This document shows, piece after piece, positions 1-25,100 of a stretch of DNA of 27,145 bases (the first letter of the stretch is position 1; each line of letters begins with the position of its first letter). The stretch lies in IMG/VR virus record IMGVR_UViG_3300014820_000009, positions 1 through 27,145 of that record. The stretch is one strand, 5' to 3'. The stretch is from a virus. The notes under the pieces are model-generated. The model made no database searches. It saw nothing but the letters and a program-made list of their open reading frames with translations, and had not been told where the DNA came from. Position numbers and translations under genes: made by a program.

Positions 1-883
1 TCTAAAACGTATGATGTTTGAAGAGTGGGAAGTAATGAACATTTTAAGGAAGAAATATGGTTTTAAAATAGTTTTAGATATAGATGACTACTATATACTT
101 CCTTATAATCACTTATACTACACAGATTGGAATAGGGTAAAGTTGGGAGAACGTTTAATAGAAGCATGCAAACAGGCAGATTTAGTATTTGTAACCAATG
201 AGTTACTAAGGGATGTTTATAAAGTATATAATAAAAATATTTTTGTTATACCAAATGCACTTTCCTTTGATGTAGAGAATAGAAAAACTGATTCAGATAA
301 ATTAAGATTCTTATATGTATCAGGAAGTACACATTATAATGACTTAAAATCCATTAGTGGTTTGTTTCAAAGGCTTGGAACAGATACAGACTTCAAAAAA
401 AAGGCTAATTTTACTCTTTGTGGATATAACAACCCTACAAATAGTAAACAAAATGCTTGGTATAGTATGGAATCTATATGTAAAAAGTCTAATTCATATA
501 TTAGAAGAGACACTCTTACTTTAGATAAGTATATGGAGCATTATAATTATGGAGATATAACAGTTGCACCATTAGAAGACACTTTTTTTAACAGTTGTAA
601 GTCAAATCTAAAGTTTTTAGAGGCATCCTCTACAAAAAAACCCTTTATTTGCAGCAATGTTTTACCATTTACAGCAGATAAAGACCATAAAGGTATAGTT
701 TTTTGTGACAAAGGTCAGGATTGGTATAAAGCTTTTAAATTTTTTATAAATAACCCAAATGCAGTAGAAGATTATGGAGAAATGAATTATGAATATGGAA
801 AAAGACATTATAATATAATAGAAACAAATAAACAAAGAGTAGAAATACTTAGAGAATTAATAGAGCACAGGTCAAACGGATAA
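1..883 (+). CDS. Glycosyltransferase, GT4-like, 5' end outside window
   Basis: The reading frame is open to the first base of the window. The first ATG is at 11, but three in-frame codons precede it and the protein starts in the middle of a fold, so the gene is probably cut by the window edge. Visible parts are KIVLDIDDYY, typical of the N-terminal Rossmann domain of GT-B enzymes, a VIPNAL segment, and near the C-terminus SNLKFLEAS followed by KKPFICS, the usual sugar-nucleotide-binding region of GT4 enzymes. It probably transfers a sugar to a virion, DNA or host surface target; donor and acceptor cannot be read from sequence. The stop codon at 881-883 lies inside the tRNA-Asp gene that starts at 862, so the last seven codons are shared with the tRNA. 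Fold assignment is fairly sure, function is not. Confidence 0.72.
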   Translation, partial: LKRMMFEEWEVMNILRKKYGFKIVLDIDDYYILPYNHLYYTDWNRVKLGERLIEACKQADLVFVTNELLRDVYKVYNKNIFVIPNALSFDVENRKTDSDKLRFLYVSGSTHYNDLKSISGLFQRLGTDTDFKKKANFTLCGYNNPTNSKQNAWYSMESICKKSNSYIRRDTLTLDKYMEHYNYGDITVAPLEDTFFNSCKSNLKFLEASSTKKPFICSNVLPFTADKDHKGIVFCDKGQDWYKAFKFFINNPNAVEDYGEMNYEYGKRHYNIIETNKQRVEILRELIEHRSNG

Positions 884-937
884 GATGTCACCCTGTCAAG
901 GTGCACGGAACGGGTTCAACTCCCGTGTGTTCTGCCA
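862..937 (+). tRNA. tRNA-Asp (GUC), with encoded CCA
   Basis: A full cloverleaf can be drawn: a 7-bp acceptor (862-868 with 927-933, one G-U), a D loop with GG, an anticodon loop CTGTCAA giving anticodon GTC, a 5-bp T stem around TTCAACT, discriminator G at 934 and an encoded CCA at 935-937. The D stem is only 3 bp and the first anticodon-stem pair is mismatched. The 5' half lies inside the end of the glycosyltransferase gene. It reads GAU and GAC. Confidence 0.9.
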
Positions 938-1089: not shown

Positions 1090-1161
1090 TGATGCATAAT
1101 TCAATGGTAGAGTGCGGAGCTTATATCTCCGTGATTGTTGGTTCGATTCCATCTGCATCAA
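1090..1161 (+). tRNA. tRNA-Ile (UAU), reads AUA
   Basis: The acceptor is 1090-1096 with 1154-1160 (7 bp). The D stem is ATTC/GAGT around a short loop with GG. The anticodon stem is CGGAG/CTCCG with loop CTTATAT, giving anticodon TAT. The T loop is TTCGATT with one T-T mismatch in the T stem. The discriminator is A and no CCA is encoded. Most bacteria read AUA with a CAU anticodon modified to lysidine by TilS; a UAU anticodon needs no such step. AUA codons look common in this phage, so this tRNA probably supports its own translation. Confidence 0.85.
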
Positions 1162-1166
1162 CATAT

Positions 1167-1240
1167 TGTCGAATGGCGCAGCTTGGTAGCGCAATTTCCT
1201 GATAAGAAAGAGGCCGTAGGTTCAAATCCTACTTCGACAA
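1167..1240 (+). tRNA. tRNA-Ile (GAU)
   Basis: This is a regular cloverleaf: 7-bp acceptor (1167-1173 with 1233-1239), GCGC/GCGC D stem with TTGGTA in the loop, anticodon loop CTGATAA (anticodon GAT), T arm GTAGG/CCTAC around TTCAAAT, and discriminator A. No CCA is encoded. It lies 5 nt after tRNA-Ile(UAU), so both are probably cut from one precursor. Confidence 0.92.
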
Positions 1241-1303
1241 CTAAGTCCAAGCCAACAGTATAGAAGCACATCCTTGCGTGATGGATTGAGCTTGGAATTT
1301 TAT

Positions 1304-1377
1304 GGGCGTGATGCCAACGGCAGGTCAACTCCTTTGCAAGGAGATTGTTTGGGTTCGACTCCCACATCTGTCCACCA
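1304..1377 (+). tRNA. tRNA-Ala (UGC), atypical, with encoded CCA
   Basis: The anticodon arm is clear: CTCC/GGAG with loop TTTGCAA, anticodon TGC. The T loop is TTCGACT on a CCCA-type stem, and ACCA ends the gene. The acceptor is weak: five pairs GGGCG/TGTCC, then a mismatch and a G-U. The third pair is G3-U70, the main identity element for alanyl-tRNA synthetase, which supports the call. The D stem is 3 bp (GAT/GTC), with GG in the loop. One extra A sits between the T stem and the acceptor. It may be functional or partly degenerate. Confidence 0.62.
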
Positions 1378-2368: not shown

Positions 2369-3381
2369 TGAAAATACTTTTTCTTTTAAAAAAACAAAAT
2401 AATTACGGAAACTATTCTTTCAAAGGCTTGTCATCAGGATTATTTAATTCTGCAAAGATGACCGAAGAGAGCTTAGAAGAACACTTAGACATAGAAGCTG
2501 ATCTAAAAATCTGTATAGATGGAAATAGCATAGACAAAGAACTTAATGAATATAGACCGGATGTATGTATAATAGAAGCTATTTGGGTTACACCCAAAAA
2601 AATACAAGAATTACAGAAACTATATAAAGATTTGTTATTTGTAATAAGGATTCACTCAGAAGTTCCATTTTTAGCTAATGAGGGTGTAGCAATAGATTGG
2701 ATAAAAGAATACAAAAAGATTTCTAATGTATCAGTAGCTTTTAATTCTAAAGAAGCTCAAACTTCCTTTATGGCTACACTTTATACAAATTTTCCATATC
2801 TTCCAAATATTTATAGTGGTTGTGATGATAGAAATTTTTTGGGAGAGTTTAAAAATAAAAAGGTAATTGATATAGGTTGTTTTGGAGCCTTAAGACCAAT
2901 GAAAAATCAACTATTTCAAGCTTTTGCCTCTATAAGTTTAGGCAATTACCAAAATAAATTAATACGCTTTCATGTAAATAGTACAAGACAAGAACAAGGC
3001 GGAGAATCTGTAGTTAAGAATTTAAGAGCTTTGTTTAAGAATACTAAGCATGAGTTAGTTGAGCATTCTTGGCTTCCACATGAGGAGTTTTTAGGACTTA
3101 TTTCAAATATGGATTTAGGAATGCAATTATCATTTAATGAATCTTTTAATATTGTAGCCGCTGATTTTGTATCACAAGGAATTCCTATAATAGTAGGAAA
3201 CACAATAGAGTGGTTGCCAGAAGAAAGCAAAACATCCACTACAAACATAGAAGCAGTAGTAAAAAAAATGTTACACGCTCTAAAAAATGGAAACTCCTTA
3301 GTAAGAAAAGAAAAAAAATCTCTAAAAAGGTATAATGAAGAAGCTTTAGAAGCTTGGGAAGACTTTATAACTACTTGTTAA
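2368..3381 (+). CDS. Glycosyltransferase, GT-B fold, GT4-like
   Basis: 337 residues. It starts MKILFLLKKQNNYG, as expected for the first beta strand of a GT-B enzyme, with YRPDVCIIEAIWV and LLFVIRIHSEVPF as later Rossmann strands. The C-terminal domain starts near residue 165 with DIGCFGALRPMKNQLFQA and carries the nucleotide-sugar-binding motif near residue 255 (ESFNIVAADFVSQGIPIIV). It is the second glycosyltransferase in the window, 1.5 kb from the first, and shares an operon with small membrane proteins. Phage enzymes of this type decorate capsid, DNA or host envelope; the target is unknown. The start at 2368 overlaps the preceding stop by 1 nt. Confidence 0.82.
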   Translation: MKILFLLKKQNNYGNYSFKGLSSGLFNSAKMTEESLEEHLDIEADLKICIDGNSIDKELNEYRPDVCIIEAIWVTPKKIQELQKLYKDLLFVIRIHSEVPFLANEGVAIDWIKEYKKISNVSVAFNSKEAQTSFMATLYTNFPYLPNIYSGCDDRNFLGEFKNKKVIDIGCFGALRPMKNQLFQAFASISLGNYQNKLIRFHVNSTRQEQGGESVVKNLRALFKNTKHELVEHSWLPHEEFLGLISNMDLGMQLSFNESFNIVAADFVSQGIPIIVGNTIEWLPEESKTSTTNIEAVVKKMLHALKNGNSLVRKEKKSLKRYNEEALEAWEDFITTC

Positions 3382-3581: not shown

Positions 3582-3653
3582 GCCCTTATAGCCCAATGCA
3601 GAGGCGTTACCCTCAAAAGGTAATCAGTGTAGGCTCGTGACCTACTAAGGGTA
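3582..3653 (+). tRNA. tRNA-Leu (CAA), short variable loop
   Basis: The acceptor GCCCTTA/TAAGGGT has 7 bp (first pair G-U). The anticodon stem TTACC/GGTAA encloses loop CTCAAAA, anticodon CAA, reading UUG. T stem GTAGG/CCTAC has a non-standard loop CTCGTGA. Discriminator A fits LeuRS. The variable loop is only 5 nt, whereas bacterial tRNA-Leu normally has a long arm. The D loop has GC rather than GG at the 18-19 position. Confidence 0.75.
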
Positions 3654-3658
3654 CAAAC

Positions 3659-3733
3659 GTTCCTATGGCGCAGTAGGTGGACGCAAAGGTCTTAAAAATC
3701 TTACAAGGCTGAGTTCGAATCTCAGTAGGAACA
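3659..3733 (+). tRNA. tRNA-Leu (UAA), short variable loop
   Basis: Acceptor GTTCCTA/TAGGAAC (7 bp), D stem GCG/CGC with TAGGTGG in the loop, anticodon loop CTTAAAA (anticodon TAA, reads UUA), T arm CTGAG/CTCAG with TTCGAAT, discriminator A. The variable loop is 6 nt instead of the long arm expected for tRNA-Leu. No CCA is encoded. Confidence 0.88.
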
Positions 3734-3738
3734 CAAAC

Positions 3739-3812
3739 GCCGACATGAGGTAATTGGTACGCCTTACATTCTTAGAAAGTGTAGTTTGTCCGTTCAAATC
3801 GGACTGTCGGTA
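3739..3812 (+). tRNA. tRNA-Leu (UAG), short variable loop
   Basis: Acceptor GCCGACA/TGTCGGT (one G-U), D stem AGGT/GCCT with TTGG in the loop, anticodon loop CTTAGAA (anticodon TAG, reads CUA), T arm GTCCG/CGGAC with TTCAAAT, discriminator A. The variable loop is 5 nt. This anticodon reads a leucine codon; it is not an amber suppressor, which would be CTA. Confidence 0.88.
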
Positions 3813-3817
3813 CAAAT

Positions 3818-3903
3818 AGTAGGTTGCCAGAGTTTGCTAATGGCGCAGTCCTGAAAACTGAAGGCGGGTAACACCGACGGGGGTTGGAATCCTCCACCTA
3901 CTG
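3818..3903 (+). tRNA. tRNA-Ser (UGA), unusual elbow and C33
   Basis: Acceptor AGTAGGT/ACCTACT is a perfect 7 bp and the discriminator is G, as in serine tRNAs. The variable arm is long (CGG/CCG hairpin). The anticodon stem CAGT/ACTG encloses loop CCTGAAA, giving anticodon TGA but with C in place of the nearly universal U33. The D loop lacks GG and instead has GC at the 18-19 position, while the T loop is TTGGAAT, with G in place of C56. These two changes would restore a C19:G56 pair. Confidence 0.72.
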
Positions 3904-3908
3904 CAAAA

Positions 3909-3997
3909 GGAAAATAAAGCTATATTAGGACAATAGCAACGCCCTGCTAAGGCGTATGTACCCTGTGAGGTATGTGTTTCGAGTACACTGTTTTCCG
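3909..3997 (+). tRNA. tRNA-Ser (GCU)
   Basis: Acceptor GGAAAAT/GTTTTCC, D stem GCT/AGC with GG in the loop, anticodon stem ACGCC/GGCGT with loop CTGCTAA (anticodon GCT, reads AGC and AGU), long variable arm with TACC/GGTA, T loop TTCGAGT, discriminator G. All agree with a class II serine tRNA. No CCA is encoded. Confidence 0.88.
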
Positions 3998-4075
3998 CAT
4001 GTTTATAATTAACTTAAATAATATTCTTTGGTTAGTAGAGTTTAATGGAACTAATACTGATTGGATATGTATATT

Positions 4076-4147
4076 GGGATAATGCTCAGCGCAAGTCAGA
4101 CCGTCTGTAAAACGGAACTGCATGGAGATGGTGACTCCTCTATCCCA
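4076..4147 (+). tRNA. tRNA-Tyr (GUA), degenerate D arm
   Basis: Six good acceptor pairs (GGGATA/TATCCC), discriminator A, anticodon stem CCGT/ACGG with loop CTGTAAA (anticodon GTA), and a T-arm stem GGAG/CTCC. The D arm shows no clear stem and no GG; a GC can be placed at 18-19. The T loop is ATGGTGA, without the TTCRA motif and with G at position 56. The variable loop is short although bacterial tRNA-Tyr is class II. The anticodon arm and acceptor make the call; function is uncertain. Confidence 0.62.
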
Positions 4148-4161
4148 CTTTTAAAAATAAA

Positions 4162-4193
4162 TTTGGTAATATCAAAAAGTTTTTATAATTTTG
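4162..4193 (+). promoter_or_regulatory. Promoter of the first GIY-YIG gene
   Basis: TTTG at 4162-4165 and TAATTTTG at 4186-4193, again exactly 20 nt apart. The ATG at 4200 is 6 nt after the -7 box, so the mRNA should be leaderless or nearly so. The stretch TTAAAAATAAATTTGGTAA is shared with the promoter at 5133. Confidence 0.78.
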
Positions 4194-4199
4194 TATGCA

Positions 4200-4817
4200 A
4201 TGACATCAGGAATATACAAAATAACTTCTCCTACTAATAAAATTTACATAGGAGAATCTTTAAATATAGAAAGAAGATGGTCACATTATAAAACTTTAAA
4301 CTGTAAGCAACAACATAAACTATTAAATTCTTTTAAAAAATATGGTGTAATAAATCATAAATTTGAAATTTTAGAAGAATTACTATTTTTAAATAAACAA
4401 ATTCTTCTAAGCAAAGAAAAATATTATATAAATCTTTATTTAGATAAGGGTTTTCAACTTTTAAATATTTTAAAAGGGGATGAAGTAAGAAAAAAATGGA
4501 AAACTTATGTTCCTGTAGAACCCAAAAAAGTTTATCAATATGATTTATTTGGAGAGTTTATAAAAGAATTTATAAGTGCTAAAGAAGCTTCTAAGGAATT
4601 AAAAATTAGATATACTGGCATTATAAATTGTGTAGCTAAAAGGCAATTTACTACTAAGGGATTTATATTTTCTTATGAAAAATATGAAAAACCTTTTAAA
4701 GAAAAAGTAGAACTCCCTTTAGAAGTATATGAGTGTGAAAAAGAGACAATAATTAAAGATTTAAGTATTGAATTAGTAGAAATAGAGGAAAATTCCTGGA
4801 TTTTTAATTATTTTTAG
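4200..4817 (+). CDS. GIY-YIG homing endonuclease with NUMOD1-like domain
   Basis: 205 residues from ATG 4200. An in-frame TTG at 4191 lies inside the -7 promoter box, so it cannot be the start. The GIY-YIG nuclease domain is at residues 3-80: GIYKI (4-8), IYIG (15-18), catalytic Arg in ERRW (24-27) and Glu in KEKYYI near residue 75. A second domain at about residues 108-158 (VYQYDLFGEFIKEFISAKEAS ... GFIFSY) fits NUMOD1, a helix-turn-helix DNA-binding module of homing nucleases. The gene is free-standing, has its own promoter and sits at the end of the tRNA cluster. It is expected to cut a specific site in a related phage lacking the gene and be copied in by repair. The last 45 residues are acidic and match nothing I know. 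Confidence 0.9.
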   Translation: MTSGIYKITSPTNKIYIGESLNIERRWSHYKTLNCKQQHKLLNSFKKYGVINHKFEILEELLFLNKQILLSKEKYYINLYLDKGFQLLNILKGDEVRKKWKTYVPVEPKKVYQYDLFGEFIKEFISAKEASKELKIRYTGIINCVAKRQFTTKGFIFSYEKYEKPFKEKVELPLEVYECEKETIIKDLSIELVEIEENSWIFNYF

Positions 4818-5937: not shown

Positions 5938-6302
5938 AGACTATAAATATAGTAAATAAGATGGTTGCAACTAATCTAAACTTAGATGTAAAGATAGTGG
6001 AGAAGGTTAATAAACTTTATTGGAAAGAAATAGTGAGAAACCTCACTACGTTAGCAGAAGAGCCAATACACATCAAAAAAATAGGTACAATAGTTGCAAG
6101 TCCTTATAAAACAAACAATTATATTAAATATTTACTAAATAAAATAAAAAAAGTAAAAAGCAGCCCTAAATACACAGATTTAACAAAAGAAAGAATAGTA
6201 ATAGGAATAAAAGAGCAAATTGCAAACTTATGGAAAAAAAGAGATCAATTTGCTTTAGAATTTTATAATAAACAAAACCAAAATAAAAATGTCACTATTT
6301 AG
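5934..6302 (+). CDS. HU/IHF-like DNA-binding protein
   Basis: 122 residues. Residues 10-60 match the start of the HU/IHF fold: a helical region with KIVEKVNKLYWKEIVRNLT, then EPIHIKKIGTIVAS, equivalent to the beta strand with the KxxGxGxF-type motif after helix 2 of HU. The C-terminal half is strongly basic (KKVKSSPKYTDLTKERI) and longer than a bacterial HU (about 90 residues). IHF-like genes are known in crAss-like phages. It could bend DNA during packaging, replication or late transcription. Gene overlaps at both ends (4 and 14 nt) put it firmly in this operon. Confidence 0.62.
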   Translation: MKTINIVNKMVATNLNLDVKIVEKVNKLYWKEIVRNLTTLAEEPIHIKKIGTIVASPYKTNNYIKYLLNKIKKVKSSPKYTDLTKERIVIGIKEQIANLWKKRDQFALEFYNKQNQNKNVTI

Positions 6303-7333: not shown

Positions 7334-7582
7334 ATGAGCCTAACAATAACAGATAAAGAAGAGATGCAGGTTAAGCAACTTATTTTTCATAATTTAATGC
7401 AAATTGTGGAACAGTTTCCACAATACACTGTAGCACAACACTTATATTTTATTCTAAGACGCAAAGGAGATAAAGAAGAAATATATAACTGGCCAGATAA
7501 AAAAGTATTAAAGAAATTTGAAGATTATAAAGATGAACTTGAAACAGAGTTAGCTAATACTCCCACAGAAGATGAATATTAA
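7334..7582 (+). CDS. Small acidic helical protein
   Basis: 82 residues, with MQVKQLIFHNLMQIVEQFPQYTVAQHLYFILRRKG in its first half and an acidic tail ending TPTEDEY. It looks all-helical and cytoplasmic. It starts 1 nt after the exported-protein gene and its end overlaps the GIY-YIG gene start by 11 nt. Similar small phage proteins often occur near terminase genes, but I cannot assign a role. Confidence 0.7.
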   Translation: MSLTITDKEEMQVKQLIFHNLMQIVEQFPQYTVAQHLYFILRRKGDKEEIYNWPDKKVLKKFEDYKDELETELANTPTEDEY

Positions 7583-8333
7583 TACTCCTACAATTTATAA
7601 AATAACTAATCCCGCAGGAGCTGTTTATATAGGACAATCATGGTATCTAACTAAGAGAAAGTCTGCTTATAAAAACCTTAATTGCAAGGGACAGAAAAGA
7701 TTATATTACTCATTACTTAAATATAGGTGGGAAAATCATATATTTGAAGTAGTTCAAATATTACCAAAAGAAATCTCTCAAGAAATATTAGATAACTATG
7801 AAATATTTTATTGGAGACAATATAAAGAAGCAGGATATAATCTTTTGAATATAAAAGAGCCAGGAAAAGGAGGAAAACATTCAGAAGAAACGAAAGAAAA
7901 GATAAGATTAAATAAAATAGGCACAATAAATTCTGATGAAACAAGAAGAAAAATTAGTGAGTCTAATAAAGGAAGAAAGTTATCTAAAGAAACAAAAAAT
8001 AAAATGTCTTTGTATGGAAAAACAAAAATATTGCCTTTTAATTTAGATACTGAGAGGAAGCGTTTAAATACAATAAAATTAAATAAAAAGCAATTAGAAC
8101 CTTTTAGTTTAGAAGAAAGAAGAAATATTCATTCTAAAAAAAGATTAGAGGCATTAGATTCTCACAAAAAAGAAGTTTTACAGTATGATTTAAAAGAAAA
8201 CTTTATCAAAGAGTGGTCATCTATAACGGATGTTTTCAGGAAACTTAGTATAAATAATAGGCATATTTCTGAAGTTTGCTTGGGAAAAAGAAAAAGTAGT
8301 GGGGGATTTAAATGGAAGTATAAATATGTTTGA
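7572..8333 (+). CDS. GIY-YIG homing endonuclease with NUMOD3 and NUMOD1 modules
   Basis: 253 residues. Nuclease domain at residues 6-95: TIYKI (GIY replaced by TIY), VYIG (18-21), KRK near the catalytic Arg region and Glu in NYEIFYW. NUMOD3-type repeats follow (GKHSEETKEKIR and GRKLSKETKNKMS, about 98-140), then a NUMOD1-like end (VLQYDLKENFIKEW ... GFKWKYKY, 206-251). This order matches T4 SegA / I-TevI-like free-standing nucleases. It overlaps its upstream neighbour by 11 nt and the Band-7 gene by 8 nt, so it is fitted into the operon without a promoter of its own. The altered GIY motif and the basic pair in place of a single Arg make activity uncertain. Confidence 0.88.
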   Translation: MNINTPTIYKITNPAGAVYIGQSWYLTKRKSAYKNLNCKGQKRLYYSLLKYRWENHIFEVVQILPKEISQEILDNYEIFYWRQYKEAGYNLLNIKEPGKGGKHSEETKEKIRLNKIGTINSDETRRKISESNKGRKLSKETKNKMSLYGKTKILPFNLDTERKRLNTIKLNKKQLEPFSLEERRNIHSKKRLEALDSHKKEVLQYDLKENFIKEWSSITDVFRKLSINNRHISEVCLGKRKSSGGFKWKYKYV

Positions 8334-9175: not shown

Positions 9176-11203
9176 ATGTCACTAAGCACTTCCCCCGAAT
9201 TATTTTTAAATATAAAATCTATCCCCGACGAGGATAGTGAAGAGTATGTACCCTTTTTTGAGAATGAGTTAAAGAAGATTAGATATGGAGTCACTATCAA
9301 TGGGGTATATATTCATGGTTGGTTGTATTGGCATCTAAATCATTGGCACATTTATCTTGATGAATTAGATGAAGCTAACAATGATATTGTTAGAAAATTT
9401 TCTCATCCTGATTTTAGAGATAATGAATGGCTTGTAGCTGAACATATAGAGAAAGCGGAAAAAGCAAAGAAAGGATTATTAATATTTGGAACCCGAAGAT
9501 TTTCAAAAACAATCTTTGAATCTTCTTGGATAGCTCGTGGAGCTACTATTTATGAGGGGTCAGAGAATGTATTATCAAGCACTAATTCTGATGATATTGC
9601 CCTTCTTTCCTCAGCATTAGAAAAAGGAGTAAATGCTCTACATCCTTACTTTCAATTTGAAAGAATATCAAACGACTTTAAAAAGAAAGTAACACTTGGT
9701 TTTAAAGATAAAAAAGGTAAAAGACATATATGGTCTGACATTTTAATTAGAAACCTGGATGAAGGTAGAAATACAGAAGCAATAGCAGGTACTACACCCA
9801 AAACTCTTGTTATAGATGAAATAGGTAAAGCAAACTTCCTTGAAGCCTTTGCAGCAGCAAAACCAGGATTTACTTCTCCTTTTGGATGGAGATGTACTCC
9901 AATCTTGACTGGAACCGGAGGATCATTCCTACCTAATTCAGATGCTCAGAAATTCTTTGAAAATCCTGAATCACAAAACTTCTTAGCCTTAGACATTCCT
10001 AATAGGAAAAAGAAGTATGGATTATTCGTTCCTGGAACTTATAGAATGGAGGGTAAAGTTAAGACAACCTTTGGAACTTTTATAGAAAATAAAAGTGGTA
10101 TCTTACTTCCTGAAACTTCTGAATTGTTTGATTTTCCTTTTTACGTTTCTGATGAAGAGAAAGCTAAAAAAGTTATAGCTGACGAAATCGAACAAGCAAA
10201 ATTAGATAATGATGCAAAAACTGCATTAAAGGCAAGAATGTATTATCCTCTAACAGTAGAAGACTGCTTCTTAAATGAAGAGGTTAATAACTTTCCTACA
10301 GAGGCTATAGAACAACAAATTATTTATTTACAGGAAAGATATTCAGATGGAAAAGGATTACAATATGTAAAATTTTATCTTGATGTAGATGGGAAAGTTA
10401 AAAAAAGTTTTAACACACCGCTCCTTCCTATAACAGAATTCCCTGTTAATAAAAATACATTTAAAGATGCTCCAGTAGTAATATATGAAGATAGGATCTC
10501 TGAAAATCCCACGCCTGGATTGTATATAGCAGGAGGAGATACTTATGATACAAATAAGTCAGCAAACTCAAGTTCTCTTGGAGTAGTATACATATATAAA
10601 AGAATGTATGACCCTATTGGTGGAACATTTCAGGATATGATTGTAGCATCTTATGCTGCTCGTCCAGAAGAAATGAAAACATGGAATGAAACAGTGGAGA
10701 TGTTAATGGATTATTATAATGCTGTCAATATGTTTGAAGCTACAAATATGACTTTTACAAACTGGTTTGACCAACGTAATAAAGCTCATATGTTAGCGGA
10801 TGGTTATGATGCTTTAAAGGAAATCTCACCAACTACTTCTGTAACAGGAAGAGTAAAGGGACTACCAGCAACAGTAAAAGTTCAAGCTCACTATATGAAC
10901 TTAGAATATCAATATACAAAAGAAAAACTACTTATAGGAACTAATCCAATTACAAATGAACCTATTACTAAATTAGGAGTATTTAGAATTCCCGATATAA
11001 TGTTACTCAGAGAAATGTTAGCTTTTTCTAAAGGTGGTAACTTTGATAGAATTGTAGCTTTTGGTCATATATTAGCTTACGATGCTTATTTACAAAAATA
11101 TAACCCCGTTGTAAATATTCCTGAAGTTGGAGAAAAAATTGATTTCAAAAAACCATATGTTAAATCTCCTTTTCTTGCAGGCAGGAGGTCAAGCCCCTTT
11201 TAA
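9176..11203 (+). CDS. terL: Terminase large subunit (packaging ATPase and nuclease)
   Basis: 675 residues. Walker A is at 105-112 (GTRRFSKT, with the Arg pair seen in some phage terminases instead of a classic P-loop), and Walker B at 211-215 (LVIDE) followed by IGKAN. A coupling-type motif TGTGGSF follows near 245. The C-terminal RNase-H-like nuclease is marked by GGDTYD (about 453-458), FEATN (about 518) and ILAYDAY near 630, placing the three acidic metal ligands. It packages the genome into the prohead through the portal. It ends the operon that starts at 5133 and is separated from the portal gene by a promoter. This is the anchor of the packaging module; the N-terminal segment (YWHLNHWHIYLDE) resembles terminases of crAss-like phages. 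Confidence 0.93.
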   Translation: MSLSTSPELFLNIKSIPDEDSEEYVPFFENELKKIRYGVTINGVYIHGWLYWHLNHWHIYLDELDEANNDIVRKFSHPDFRDNEWLVAEHIEKAEKAKKGLLIFGTRRFSKTIFESSWIARGATIYEGSENVLSSTNSDDIALLSSALEKGVNALHPYFQFERISNDFKKKVTLGFKDKKGKRHIWSDILIRNLDEGRNTEAIAGTTPKTLVIDEIGKANFLEAFAAAKPGFTSPFGWRCTPILTGTGGSFLPNSDAQKFFENPESQNFLALDIPNRKKKYGLFVPGTYRMEGKVKTTFGTFIENKSGILLPETSELFDFPFYVSDEEKAKKVIADEIEQAKLDNDAKTALKARMYYPLTVEDCFLNEEVNNFPTEAIEQQIIYLQERYSDGKGLQYVKFYLDVDGKVKKSFNTPLLPITEFPVNKNTFKDAPVVIYEDRISENPTPGLYIAGGDTYDTNKSANSSSLGVVYIYKRMYDPIGGTFQDMIVASYAARPEEMKTWNETVEMLMDYYNAVNMFEATNMTFTNWFDQRNKAHMLADGYDALKEISPTTSVTGRVKGLPATVKVQAHYMNLEYQYTKEKLLIGTNPITNEPITKLGVFRIPDIMLLREMLAFSKGGNFDRIVAFGHILAYDAYLQKYNPVVNIPEVGEKIDFKKPYVKSPFLAGRRSSPF

Positions 11204-11282: not shown

Positions 11283-13967
11283 ATGTTTAATTATAACAAC
11301 TCATTAGCAGCTATGCTTCCTCCGCAGATGCTTTCATCATCTCAAAAAGATGAGGAATGGAGACACAGCACAATGGATGCTCTCGAAAGAATAGGAAGGA
11401 TACAATACCAGGAAAACATAAAACTTATAGAGAATTATGAAATGATCAAAGGAAAGTTTATATTTAAACATTACTTTGAATCAGAAGCTCATGGGGATAT
11501 GTTAGGTCAGTTAACCAGAGAATTTGAAATTCCTACATATCTACGACATTATGATATTATCTCTCAGGTAATAAACACAATGTCAGGAGAATACCAAAAA
11601 AGACCTGATAATTTTAGAGTGAGAGGAAATGATGAAGGAACTACTAATGAATATATCAGGCAAAAAACATCTATGCTTATTAATTATGTTCAAGCAAAAA
11701 TAGATGCAGAAATAAATGCTAAACTCTCTCAAATGGGTTTAGATCCTAATAAAACAGATTTTAATTCTCCTCAAGAACAACAACAGTACCAACAACAGAT
11801 ACAGCAACAAAAACAAGCTCTCACTCCTCCTGAGATTCAGAAGTATATGGATATGAGTTGGATGGACACAGCAGAAATATGGGGACAACATCAATTAGAA
11901 TTAGATAAAGAAAGATTTAAATTTTCTGAAAAAGAAAAGGTAGAATTTGAAGATATGCTTGTTGCAGATAGATGCTTTAGACATTATTATATTACTTCAA
12001 ACGGATATGAACAAGAAACATGGAATCCTATAAATACTTTTTTTCATAGATCTCCAGAAGTACAATATACAGAAGATGGGGATTATGCAGGAAGAGTTTT
12101 TTATATTACAACTCCAGCAGTTATAGATCGTTATGGTTTTTTAATGACAAAAAGCCAAATAGATTCTTTACAAGAAGATTTAAGTAAAGATAAGACTAAG
12201 TGGAATGAAGCCACTGGAACGGATTATGTATATAAAGAATATTTAGAACCTTTTAAAGGAGCTAAAGAGTACACTTTAATGCAGCAAACCTTAGGATTTA
12301 AGAATATAGAATCACAAGGAATTCCTTTCTTAGATAGTGGAACTCTTAGTGGAATTTATAATGGGACATTATTTAGTGCAGCAAGAGGCTATCATTTAGT
12401 TACAGAAGCTTATTGGAAATCGCAGAAAAAAATAGGAAAAGTAATTTACCCAGATCCAGAAACAGGAATGATGGTTAAAATGCTTGTTGATGAGAATATT
12501 ATTATTCCTCCCGATTTTAAACAAAAAGATTCCTCTTTTGACGATAGAGAAGAACCTTTCACTGTTATATGGACTTGGATTAATGAGGTGTGGAAAGGTA
12601 AGAAAATAAGTAGAAGAGGAGTGTCTGCTACTTCAAATACAGATGATATATATTTTGATATTAAACCTTTAGAGTTTCAATTTAAAGGAGATATAAATCC
12701 TTATAAGGCAAAACTTCCCGTTTGTGGTGGAAGATTTAGCCCAAGAAACTCAGAATCAATGTCTTTAGTTGACATGATGAAGCCTTTCCAAATAGGACAC
12801 AATGTAGCAATGAATCAGTTATATCAAATAATGGAGCGTGAGGTTGGGAGATTTATAGTGATGGATGTGAATATGTTTCCAGCATTAAAAGATTGGGGAG
12901 GGGAAAAAGGTTGGGAGAAAGCTATGTTAGTAGCTAAGAGTTTGGGAATGTTTCCTGCTGATACTTCCCCACAAAATACAAAAGGTTCAGCGGCTGCCGC
13001 TGGTGGGCAGTACCCAAAAATGATTGATTTAGATGAGTCTGCTCGTATGCTATCAAGAATTAAAATTGCAGCAGAGTTTGAACAGTTTGCTTTGAAACAA
13101 GTAGGATTTAATGAATATAGACTTGGACAACAAGCTGCCTCTTCTACTGCTAAAGGTGTAGAAGTAGGACAACAAGCTTCATATTCTCAGACAGAATCTT
13201 ATTTTACAAACTTCTCTAATTATATTAGGAGATGCTTAAAAATGGACTTAGATATAGCTCAGTATGTACAATCAAAAGAAAAAGACATCACTGTATCTTA
13301 TACTAAATCAGACATGTCAAGGGCATTTATAAAATTAAATGGTACTGATTTATTATTATCTGATTTACATGTCTACGTGTCAAATTCCCAAGAACAGTTA
13401 AGACAACTCGAAATGCTTAGACAACTTGGACTTGAAAATAACACCTCAGGAGCTACTATAGTTGACTTAGCTAATATTATTACAATGAATTCTCCTGCTG
13501 AGATCAAGTTACAACTTGAAGAATCTTACAAAGCTAAGACGGCATTAGAACAACAGCAGTATCAAATACAACAACAGCAAATAGAACAAGAGAAAGAACT
13601 TAAGATTGAAGAACTTAACAGAGAAGATTCTAATATAGAAAAACAAATTCAGGGAAGACAAGATGTTGCTTATATACTGACTTTTGCTAAACAAGCTGAT
13701 AATCTAAAAGATACAAATGCAGACCAAGTTCCTGATTTATTAGAATACGATAAACTAAGTGCTAAAACATCATCAGACACTTCAAAAGTACAAGTGCAGC
13801 AAGAAAAAAATAACTTGGCAAGAAATAAAATGATTGCTGACAAAGAGTTTAATGTTAAAAAATTAAAATTAGACCAACAAAGACTTGCAAGCAATGAAAA
13901 AATAGAGAATAAAAAATTGGCTGTTGTGAAGGCGTTAAAAGGACAGAATGTAACAGCTAAAAAATAA
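11283..13967 (+). CDS. Portal protein
   Basis: 894 residues, immediately after the terminase. Opens with a helical region and the segment EFEIPTYLRHYDIISQVINTM followed by GEYQKRPDNFRV, which is portal-like in Bacteroidetes phages. A glutamine-rich insert (residues about 160-180, QQQYQQQIQQQKQ) separates the first stem-like part from the core. Other landmarks are PICGGRFSPRN-type residues near 480 (PVCGGRFSPRNSES), long helices, and a Gln- and Lys-rich coiled-coil C-terminus (ALEQQQYQIQQQQIEQEKELK, residues 756-780, then a charged tail). Expected to form the dodecameric vertex channel and to bind terminase and adaptor proteins. Function is inferred from position, length and the portal-like segments, as no single motif proves it. 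Confidence 0.85.
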   Translation: MFNYNNSLAAMLPPQMLSSSQKDEEWRHSTMDALERIGRIQYQENIKLIENYEMIKGKFIFKHYFESEAHGDMLGQLTREFEIPTYLRHYDIISQVINTMSGEYQKRPDNFRVRGNDEGTTNEYIRQKTSMLINYVQAKIDAEINAKLSQMGLDPNKTDFNSPQEQQQYQQQIQQQKQALTPPEIQKYMDMSWMDTAEIWGQHQLELDKERFKFSEKEKVEFEDMLVADRCFRHYYITSNGYEQETWNPINTFFHRSPEVQYTEDGDYAGRVFYITTPAVIDRYGFLMTKSQIDSLQEDLSKDKTKWNEATGTDYVYKEYLEPFKGAKEYTLMQQTLGFKNIESQGIPFLDSGTLSGIYNGTLFSAARGYHLVTEAYWKSQKKIGKVIYPDPETGMMVKMLVDENIIIPPDFKQKDSSFDDREEPFTVIWTWINEVWKGKKISRRGVSATSNTDDIYFDIKPLEFQFKGDINPYKAKLPVCGGRFSPRNSESMSLVDMMKPFQIGHNVAMNQLYQIMEREVGRFIVMDVNMFPALKDWGGEKGWEKAMLVAKSLGMFPADTSPQNTKGSAAAAGGQYPKMIDLDESARMLSRIKIAAEFEQFALKQVGFNEYRLGQQAASSTAKGVEVGQQASYSQTESYFTNFSNYIRRCLKMDLDIAQYVQSKEKDITVSYTKSDMSRAFIKLNGTDLLLSDLHVYVSNSQEQLRQLEMLRQLGLENNTSGATIVDLANIITMNSPAEIKLQLEESYKAKTALEQQQYQIQQQQIEQEKELKIEELNREDSNIEKQIQGRQDVAYILTFAKQADNLKDTNADQVPDLLEYDKLSAKTSSDTSKVQVQQEKNNLARNKMIADKEFNVKKLKLDQQRLASNEKIENKKLAVVKALKGQNVTAKK

Positions 13968-15303: not shown

Positions 15304-16965
15304 ATGGCTGATTTTCCATTACCAAGTTTAAACTCCCTTAACGGTGCAGTAATTGTTGCTCAAAGTAAGTTTGAGCCAAGTAAATTTACTGACCTAAACT
15401 CTTTGTATGCAAATTACAAAAAGGATTCCTTCACAGTATATAAAGGATTATTAGCTCTTTGGAATCAAAGAAGTTTAATCAACACTCCTTTGTTAAACAT
15501 GACAGAGTTGAAAAACAACGTTATGTATATACCAAACGTAGAAGGACGTTTTCGTTATGATGTACCTTATGAAATGAGTTTCCCATTTATTGTGGAAGAC
15601 TTAACTATAGATTTGGATAAGCCAGGTCTTGATGGTCAGAAGTTTCAGGTTAAGATAAATGAAAATGTATTCACTAACACTGACCGTATTATCGCTGATT
15701 TACGTGATGGAATAGAATTATACATCGCAGAAGATGAAATTGTAGAAGAAACTGATGGGTGGATTTATACAGTTGAAATTGTAAATAAAGACCGTAAAGG
15801 TACTTTCTATCCTAAAGAATTCTTACAGCCAGGTGTGCAGTATATGAAAATATCTAACATCAATGGTGAGTATGATACTCAGAAATCTTCTATAACAACA
15901 GGTAGTGGCTTTATGCAACTACAAATGGAGTTGGGTGGTGGACACCGTTCAGCTACACACTGGTGTACAGGTTACGGAGATATGGCTCGTATCAACGAAC
16001 AGAAAAATCCTCAATTAGCTTTTATCAACCAACGTCTTGAAAACATGGGTGGAGCAATGCTCTATATGAATAAAGATGCTAATGGTAATGTTATTAAAGA
16101 TTCTATTAGATGGCAACCAACAATTGAAATGTTGTTACGTGTTGAAATGGAAACAATGACAGAGAAAGATTTGATGTGGGGTAAAGGTGGTTTCGTTAAA
16201 GGATCAGGCCGTAGAGCAATTAGAGTGGGAGCAGGTTTATACGAACAGTTGCGTAATGGTAACAGATATGTATATAATAAGATTACTCTTACATTAATTG
16301 AAAACGCTATTGCTAATCTTTATAGTAAATCAGGTATTCCAGTTGAACAACGTAGAACTAAGATTCAAACAGGAACAGGAGGTTTAATACAGATTTCTAA
16401 AGAATTAGAAGAAAGATACAAACAAACAAATATATTCCTTACTAACACAGGAGATGTTCCAGGAAATGCATTGTTCGGTAACGACGCTATGCATCTTGGA
16501 TTTGGTCACAGATTTACTTCATTCATTTCACCTGTTGCAGGTTTACTTGAATGGGAATTGAATCCAGCTCTTGACAGTGTTTCAGGATTAAGAAAGCAAG
16601 ATGGTTTAATTGGTGAATATCCAATTGAATCATACACTTACATGATTATGGACATCACTGACAGCAAAACTTCAAATGCTGCTGCTCGTGTTGCTAATGT
16701 TAAATATCGTGTAGAAGATGGTTTTAACTCAAATGCAAATATTGTTCTTGTTAAACCACAAGATTATGGTGAGTTGTATTGGGGTTACATTCAAGGTACT
16801 CAGTCTCCATTTGGGCCAAGCTCAATGCAAGGTATGTATTCAGCAAATAGTTTTGACGGATGGCAGATTTGGATGAAATCATTTGCTAACGTATGGATCA
16901 AGGACGTAACACGTACTATGATTATAGAAAAGGCTCGTCCTACTTCTATTGGTCAATTAGCATAA
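15304..16965 (+). CDS. Major capsid protein
   Basis: 553 residues. Begins DFPLPSLNSLNGAVIVAQSK and continues into a beta-rich protein with repeated aromatic stretches (FRYDVPYEMSFPFIVEDL; GGGHRSATHWCTGYGDM; LLEWELNPALDSVSGL). Size, position after scaffold, and richer use of abundant-gene codons (GGT, CGT, GTT; fewer AGA and ATA than neighbours) point to the most abundant virion protein. I judge it homologous in layout to capsid proteins of crAss-like phages. An A-rich leader precedes the start. Structural prediction for an HK97 fold would settle it. Confidence 0.8.
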   Translation: MADFPLPSLNSLNGAVIVAQSKFEPSKFTDLNSLYANYKKDSFTVYKGLLALWNQRSLINTPLLNMTELKNNVMYIPNVEGRFRYDVPYEMSFPFIVEDLTIDLDKPGLDGQKFQVKINENVFTNTDRIIADLRDGIELYIAEDEIVEETDGWIYTVEIVNKDRKGTFYPKEFLQPGVQYMKISNINGEYDTQKSSITTGSGFMQLQMELGGGHRSATHWCTGYGDMARINEQKNPQLAFINQRLENMGGAMLYMNKDANGNVIKDSIRWQPTIEMLLRVEMETMTEKDLMWGKGGFVKGSGRRAIRVGAGLYEQLRNGNRYVYNKITLTLIENAIANLYSKSGIPVEQRRTKIQTGTGGLIQISKELEERYKQTNIFLTNTGDVPGNALFGNDAMHLGFGHRFTSFISPVAGLLEWELNPALDSVSGLRKQDGLIGEYPIESYTYMIMDITDSKTSNAAARVANVKYRVEDGFNSNANIVLVKPQDYGELYWGYIQGTQSPFGPSSMQGMYSANSFDGWQIWMKSFANVWIKDVTRTMIIEKARPTSIGQLA

Positions 16966-18609: not shown

Positions 18610-19422
18610 ATGGCAAATAACCAAATATATAAAATAGATGATATTTTATTTGAAAAAATAAAAGTTCATTATAATAATGGAAAATCTTTTGGAGAGCTGG
18701 CTACTGATTTTAAAATGTCAAAAGCTACTATTTACAAAAGTTTTAAAAAAAGAAATGAAGAAGTAAGGAAACACAATAATAAATACATTTGTGATGAAAA
18801 TTACTTCAATAATATTGATAATGGTAATAAAGCATATATTTTAGGATTTATCGCCGCAGATGGTTGTCTTTATAAACATAGAAATTGTCATACCCTTTCT
18901 ATAGGACTTCATCTAAAAGATAGAGAAGTTTTAGAATTTATTAAAAAAGAATTGCAAAGTAATTCTGATGTAGTAGATTCTTTAGTAAGCGAAAAATATC
19001 ACAGAACATTATTTAGAGTCCACTCTTCAAAAATTGTTTCAGATTTAGAGAGATTAGGATTGACAGAAAGGAAAAGTTTAACTCTTACATTCAATGGAGT
19101 TTTAATTCCTGAGATTTACAAATTTGATTATCTCAGAGGTTATATTGATGGAGATGGCCATGTTGATAGTAAGATAAATTTAATAACTTTATTAGGAACA
19201 GAAATATTTTGCAAAGAATTACAAAGTTATTTAAAAGAAAAAGAAATAAATTCTTCTGTAAGAAGAGCAGTTAAAAATAAAGATTTACATGAATTAAGAA
19301 TACTTAAGGATAGTAAAGAAAAAATAATAAAATTACTCAATTATAACTCCTTCGCATTGAGTAGAAAGAAAAAAGAAATGGAGGAGATATTAAATAAAAT
19401 TAAAATTTATATTGAATGTTGA
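18610..19422 (+). CDS. LAGLIDADG homing endonuclease
   Basis: 270 residues. Two LAGLIDADG motifs are visible: AYILGFIAADG (75-85) and DYLRGYIDGDG (173-183), each with the catalytic acidic residue and spaced about 98 residues, as in monomeric two-motif enzymes. An N-terminal helix-turn-helix is likely at 24-50 (SFGELATDFKMSKATIYKSF). The gene sits between connector-like and large virion protein genes and its stop overlaps the next start by 7 nt, so it is a free-standing invader in the late operon. No inserted-gene split is visible on either side. It probably cuts the junction of related phages lacking it. Confidence 0.92.
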   Translation: MANNQIYKIDDILFEKIKVHYNNGKSFGELATDFKMSKATIYKSFKKRNEEVRKHNNKYICDENYFNNIDNGNKAYILGFIAADGCLYKHRNCHTLSIGLHLKDREVLEFIKKELQSNSDVVDSLVSEKYHRTLFRVHSSKIVSDLERLGLTERKSLTLTFNGVLIPEIYKFDYLRGYIDGDGHVDSKINLITLLGTEIFCKELQSYLKEKEINSSVRRAVKNKDLHELRILKDSKEKIIKLLNYNSFALSRKKKEMEEILNKIKIYIEC

Positions 19423-24593: not shown

Positions 24594-25100
24594 GTGATAA
24601 AATTATTAAAAACTCATTGTGCTAATGGACATGAACGCATAGAAGAAAATCTTATTATATATAAAGATGGGAGAAAACGATGTAGATTATGCCGCAGAAA
24701 AATCCCTACACATTGTCCAAAAGGACATTTACATGAAGAAGGTAATTGGTATTATAATAAAAGAGGAGACAGACATTGTAAAGCTTGTAGAGATATACAA
24801 ACAAGAGAAAATAGGGAGAAACATTCTGAAAAACATATAGTATATCAAAACAGAGCAAAAGTTAAAAAATACGGAATAACTTTAGAAGAGTATAATACAT
24901 TACTGGAAAAACAGAATTTTGTATGTGCAGTTTGTAAAAATGAATATCCTTCTGATAAACAACTTGCAGTAGATCACGACCATAAAACTAACAAAGTAAG
25001 AGGATTACTTTGTAATAATTGTAATGTAGGAATAGGCATGTTAAATGACTCTATAGAAACATTAGAAAAAGCAATAAACTATTTAAAAAATAATAATTAA
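24594..25100 (+). CDS. HNH endonuclease of the recombination endonuclease VII family
   Basis: 168 residues from a GTG start at 24594. The C-terminal half matches endonuclease VII: KKYGITLEEYNTLLEKQ (91-107), CAVC (111-114), LAVDHDHKTNKVRGLLC (124-140) with the DHDH metal site, and NNCNVGIGML (141-150), giving zinc-binding C111, C114, C140 and C143. The first 66 residues carry two zinc-finger-like repeats: C9-x3-H13 with C30 and C33, and C41-x3-H45 with C62 and C65. These are probably extra DNA-binding modules, which suggests homing of the gene rather than the resolvase role of T4 gp49. It lies 12 nt after one tail gene and overlaps the next by 1 nt. Confidence 0.88.
   Translation: MIKLLKTHCANGHERIEENLIIYKDGRKRCRLCRRKIPTHCPKGHLHEEGNWYYNKRGDRHCKACRDIQTRENREKHSEKHIVYQNRAKVKKYGITLEEYNTLLEKQNFVCAVCKNEYPSDKQLAVDHDHKTNKVRGLLCNNCNVGIGMLNDSIETLEKAINYLKNNN

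Follow-up and report, generated by a model that had tools for sequence, protein, structure and literature searches.

The analysed stretch of DNA, referred to as the window, comprises 27,145 nucleotides (positions 1 to 27,145 of the IMG/VR virus record IMGVR_UViG_3300014820_000009). The tRNA and structural genes described here are all located on its plus strand. Three neighbouring genes were identified by both ARAGORN and Rfam as tRNA-Leu(CAA) (3582..3654), tRNA-Leu(UAA) (3659..3734) and tRNA-Leu(UAG) (3739..3813). They are followed by two class II genes, the long-armed tRNA-Ser(UGA) (3818..3904), which ARAGORN detected at a lowered threshold only, and tRNA-Ser(GCU) (3909..3998), which has an arm of 17 nt according to ARAGORN. 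The same array contains tRNA-Asp(GUC) (862..934; Rfam), tRNA-Ile(UAU) and tRNA-Ile(GAU) (1090..1241; ARAGORN and Rfam) and tRNA-Ala(UGC) (1302..1373; lowered threshold). A tRNA-Tyr(GUA)-like gene at about 4076..4148 is also devoid of a long arm; it has an odd T-loop, scored weakly at the lowered threshold and had been overlooked in the original prediction. Bacterial tRNA-Tyr normally belongs to class II. In the nearest relative of the window (L013), tRNA-Tyr(GUA) is short as well (6201-6270, variable loop of 5 nt); in L014 it has a 14-nt arm. Homing-endonuclease-like ORFs (GIY-YIG, LAGLIDADG or HNH, as judged by a look at the sequences) at 4191-4817, 7572-8333, 18610-19422 and 24594-25100 are interspersed with the tRNA and structural genes.

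Genes coding for the terminase large subunit (TerL; 9176..11203), the portal protein (11283..13967) and the major head protein (15304..16965) were assigned by homology. TerL is 51% identical to its counterpart from Leptolyngbya phage Lbo-JY46, 33% identical to that of csAssE-Sib, and ~30% identical to those of the Cellulophaga phages phi17:2 and phi4:1. Due to its homologous terminase, portal and head proteins, the window can be assigned to a crAss-like phage, of which it would be a fragment. The presence of these three phage proteins also rules out a mitochondrial origin of the Leu genes. The recorded host of Lbo-JY46 (PP438436; L008/L009/L010) is cyanobacterial; Bacteroidota are the hosts of the remaining relatives for which a host is named, and the record for Lbo-JY46 may therefore be doubtful. 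A DNA search of the phage collection with the first 8 kb of the window gave no match except for tRNA-Asp. The IMG/VR contig L006 differs from the window at one position in 12,172 nt.

According to ARAGORN and Rfam, each of the three Leu genes forms a closed cloverleaf with a Leu anticodon. Their variable loops, counted as the nucleotides between the anticodon stem and the T-stem, are TCAGT (5 nt) in tRNA-Leu(CAA), ACAAGG (6 nt) in tRNA-Leu(UAA) and AGTTT (5 nt) in tRNA-Leu(UAG). These values confirm the lengths of the original prediction; a long variable arm (at least 10 nt with a stem) is absent from all three genes. Equally correct were the assignment of A73 to all three Leu sequences and of long arms to both Ser tRNAs. 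The proposed check by means of a covariance model was run with the Rfam tRNA model and yielded 45.9, 51.9 and 49.9 bits for tRNA-Leu(CAA), (UAA) and (UAG), respectively (E values of 1e-8 to 6e-7), well above the cut-off of 29 bits. A longer alternative fold with a real variable arm, named as a possible objection from the outset, was sought by in silico folding of the three genes and was not found. Such a fold is impossible, since all three acceptor stems are closed and 4 nt separate one Leu gene from the next. The minimum-energy fold of tRNA-Leu(UAG) is the short-loop cloverleaf and that of tRNA-Leu(CAA) is close to this shape; for tRNA-Leu(UAA), energy folding alone gives no cloverleaf.

Leucylation in E. 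coli depends on A73, A15-U48, G18G19 and A20a, that is, on the discriminator position and the core formed by the D- and T-loops, and E. coli tRNALeu is still charged when its anticodon and variable arms are missing; serine identity rests on the long variable arm (review PMC9976931). All six scored Leu core elements are kept in tRNA-Leu(UAG), and four each in the other two genes. tRNA-Leu(UAA) is devoid of A15-U48 and A20a. In tRNA-Leu(CAA), one G of G18G19 is missing from the D-loop, so that A20a cannot be placed, and the T-loop reads CTCGTGA, with T54 and A58 lost. This degenerate core had escaped the original prediction. For a broader comparison, short-armed tRNA-Leu from phages were contrasted with 858 class I control tRNAs, using features that are not forced by the search pattern; A14, A15 and G18G19 are partly forced and were left out as evidence. 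U48 occurs in a fraction of 0.98 of the phage sequences versus 0.39 of the controls, A20a in 0.96 versus 0.48, a non-Watson-Crick pair 13-22 in 0.96 versus 0.41, and A73 in 0.99 versus 0.59. Most short-armed tRNA-Leu retain the core nucleotides used by LeuRS. An isotype profile that is blind to the arm placed 94 of 202 short-armed and 50 of 51 long-armed tRNA-Leu as Leu. None of the three genes of the window was placed in this way, and for tRNA-Leu(UAG) Leu was second best.

The short variable loop is conserved in crAss-like relatives. L013 contains Leu CAA, UAG and UAA, all with loops of 5 nt, and L014 contains short-armed tRNA-Leu with loops of 5 and 4 nt. In Lbo-JY46, Leu(UAA) with 5 nt and Leu(UAG) with 4 nt are accompanied by one long-armed Leu(UAA). 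Loops of 6 nt are found in Leu(UAA) of L032, whose Leu(UAG) has an arm of 19 nt, and in Leu(UAG) of phi17:2, whose Leu(UAA) is intermediate with 11 nt. The Leu(UAA) of L048 also has 11 nt. Every Ser tRNA that ARAGORN reported in the loci of these relatives is long-armed.

Viral contigs were then searched with a short-armed Leu pattern that accepts any YAR anticodon, and 80 loci among the matches listed were checked by means of ARAGORN. At least 120 short-armed tRNA-Leu were found, in 75 of these 80 fetched IMG/VR loci; 100 of them have a variable loop of 5 nt and 119 have A73. Among the matches listed, the anticodons UAG, CAA, UAA, GAG, CAG and AAG are represented, and the genes with loops of at most 7 nt form at least about 85 clusters at 85% identity. 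Short and long Leu genes occur together in 25 of the loci listed. In the same 80 viral loci, ARAGORN gave no short arm among 74 Ser and 26 Tyr tRNAs. Escherichia phage 4MG, whose listed host is E. coli K-12 MG1655, contains Leu(UAA) and Leu(UAG) with loops of 5 nt. The short Leu genes of this phage (L375) are located at 3132 and 5994 and offer a handy laboratory test system. Further examples come from the isolates Av-05, Proteus phage 1 and Mycobacterium phage Kykar. For T4 and T5, the Leu genes seen are of the long type (85 nt as annotated in T5).

Among the matches of the short-armed Leu pattern listed for genome contigs, single chromosomal genes of Actinobacteria prevail, complemented by cyanobacterial tRNA arrays. 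The latter (L178, L201, L205, L209, L222, L245) comprise 12-26 tRNAs in at most 8 kb, including short-armed tRNA-Leu. For Mycolicibacterium sediminis (G001; L337, L349), ARAGORN was applied to the regions of all 46 Rfam matches and yielded 46 tRNAs. Among these, Leu(UAA) and Leu(CAA) are represented by genes with loops of 5 nt only, so that no other readers of UUA and UUG were found in this genome; Leu CAG, GAG and UAG are all long-armed. The naming of tRNALeu-2, 3 and 5 as the long-looped Leu tRNAs of M. tuberculosis (PMC11541572) agrees with this result. Short-armed tRNA-Leu are core genes in some Actinobacteria. As sampled, they are present in a minority of this phylum: two strict patterns found them in 18 of 296 genomes and in 9 of 149, respectively. 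In 395 genomes of Bacteroidota, which are the likely host phylum of the window phage as inferred from its relatives, the long-arm Leu pattern matched 266 and the short-arm pattern four. Of these four matches, one is a real tRNA, located in a small cluster of tRNA genes, and three look like chance; host Leu tRNAs are therefore normally long.

In the literature searched, outside of which most subscription papers lie, no general account of short-armed tRNA-Leu was found, and the one report is made in passing: a tRNALeu(UAG) with a short variable loop from a tRNA cluster of Mycobacterium mucogenicum/phocaicum, which was horizontally acquired, is probably phage-derived and contains homing endonucleases (PMC6582537). 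The window resembles this cluster in having a Leu isoacceptor without long arm within a mobile array of tRNA genes that also holds homing endonucleases. It differs in that three isoacceptors are found in a crAss-like phage, with many further phages alongside, whereas the report concerns one mycobacterial gene. Animal mitochondrial tRNALeu (PMC9976931) likewise has a short variable loop and is charged without a long arm, with A73 and A14 as LeuRS elements; however, these organellar tRNAs have their own LeuRS, whereas the genes of the window belong to a phage of a bacterial host. The arm-deleted E. coli tRNALeu of Larkin et al. 2002, as summarized in the review PMC9976931, is also armless and leucylated by virtue of A73 and the D/T-loop core. 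It was engineered, whereas the phage genes occur naturally, in some cases with a drifted core. Canonical class II tRNALeu, as present in Aequorivita G002 (Bacteroidota) and phage T4, shares anticodons and A73 with the genes of the window, and A14, A15-U48, G18G19 and A20a with tRNA-Leu(UAG), but has arms of 13-15 nt. The genes of the window match a short-armed type found in phages, mobile arrays and Actinobacteria, which is defined by variable loops of 4-7 nt, a Leu anticodon, A73 and long Ser arms at the same locus. The trait is not unique to the window, which represents a widespread but little-noticed variant of tRNA-Leu.

The original prediction had left two options, namely leucine tRNAs that the host LeuRS accepts, or tRNAs carrying another amino acid and altering the meaning of UUA, UUG and CUA during infection. 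The second option could draw on the arm-blind profile, in which the CAA gene is nearest to Met and the UAA gene nearest to Cys, both at low scores. It was rejected on the basis of a codon test, in which the genes of the window were aligned to relatives and UUA, UUG and CUA were left out among the partners. The best-scoring residue is Leu at UUA (168 columns), UUG (36) and CUA (32), with a small margin for CUA (Leu 0.57, Met 0.52); in the calibration of the test, 48 of 52 codons were called correctly. Furthermore, UUA is the commonest Leu codon of the window (331 of 610), and a changed meaning would be ruinous as long as the host tRNALeu remains. Together, UUA, UUG and CUA make up 454 of the 610 Leu codons (74%) in the genes examined. 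Anticodon-reading synthetases should reject the anticodons UAA, CAA and UAG. Among the anticodon-independent enzymes only LeuRS fits, because A73 and the lack of a long arm speak against SerRS and the lack of G3-U70 against AlaRS. We therefore give practically no credence to a recoding of these codons.

More serious is the possibility that only part of the set works and that some genes, chiefly tRNA-Leu(CAA), are decaying pseudogenes. The losses of one G of G18G19, of T54 and of A58 in the CAA gene, all of which are kept in its L013 homologue, point in this direction, as do the missing A15-U48 of tRNA-Leu(UAA) and its failure to fold into a cloverleaf in silico. On the other hand, all stems are intact, A73 is kept and the Rfam scores exceed the cut-off by a wide margin; moreover, a sequencing error is unlikely, given the near-identical contig L006, although this contig may represent the same phage. 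We consider decay somewhat doubtful. Of the three genes, tRNA-Leu(UAG) makes the strongest case; tRNA-Leu(UAA) and especially tRNA-Leu(CAA) have drifted and may be poor substrates of LeuRS, and the CAA gene may be decaying.

It is thus highly probable that the three genes code for leucine tRNAs of a class-I-like shape, which supply additional carriers for UUA, UUG and CUA and are expected to be charged by the host LeuRS. Of the two options, this one is supported by the conservation of the trait in relatives, the retained LeuRS core elements, the sole UUA/UUG readers of the mycobacterial genome and the leucylation of arm-less E. coli tRNALeu (PMC9976931). Charging is predicted because recognition by bacterial LeuRS relies on A73 and the D-loop/T-loop core and not on the arm. 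During infection, the tRNAs would add to the pool of leucine carriers for the three codons. As LeuRS needs A73 and the D/T-loop core and serine identity rests on the arm, Leu arms can go and Ser arms cannot; the former would be free to shrink, and the latter would be held by the grip of SerRS. We infer that the tRNAs of the window are expressed and charged, and that relaxed constraint is the reason for the loss of their arm.

Alternatively, the arm might have been lost under selection, as an escape from enzymes or toxins of the host by which long variable arms are recognised; tRNA-Ser could not do likewise, as its arm is required by SerRS. Such a scenario bears on the cause of arm loss and is compatible with the genes being leucine tRNAs. 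A precedent is MenT3 of M. tuberculosis, which depends on the long variable loop: long extension is abolished when this loop is deleted from tRNASer and arises when it is grafted onto tRNAMet (PMC11541572). Moreover, the loss is specific for Leu and occurs in many unrelated phage tRNA sequences. However, MenT3 favours Ser over long-armed Leu, the actinobacterial core genes have the short arm outside a phage context, and 25 of the viral loci listed hold both short and long Leu. A toxin directed against class II arms is, to our knowledge, not known for these hosts, which also counts against selection. Taken together, we regard an origin by selection as unlikely. Similarly speculative, and in our opinion improbable, is a neglected natural class of short-armed tRNALeu that is common to bacteria and phages and whose arm loss is adaptive. 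If it existed, phages would free their leucine supply from host factors recognising class II arms, or would alter LeuRS proofreading, and Mycobacteriales and some other Actinobacteria would split UUR from CUN leucine decoding.

The textbook view of a long arm in bacterial tRNA-Leu is contradicted by the sequences of many phages and by core UUA/UUG-reading genes of some Actinobacteria. For annotators, this argues for caution against labelling short-armed tRNA-Leu as mis-typed or recoding. The phages, including E. coli phage 4MG on K-12, may serve as natural tests of how LeuRS selects its tRNAs and proofreads.
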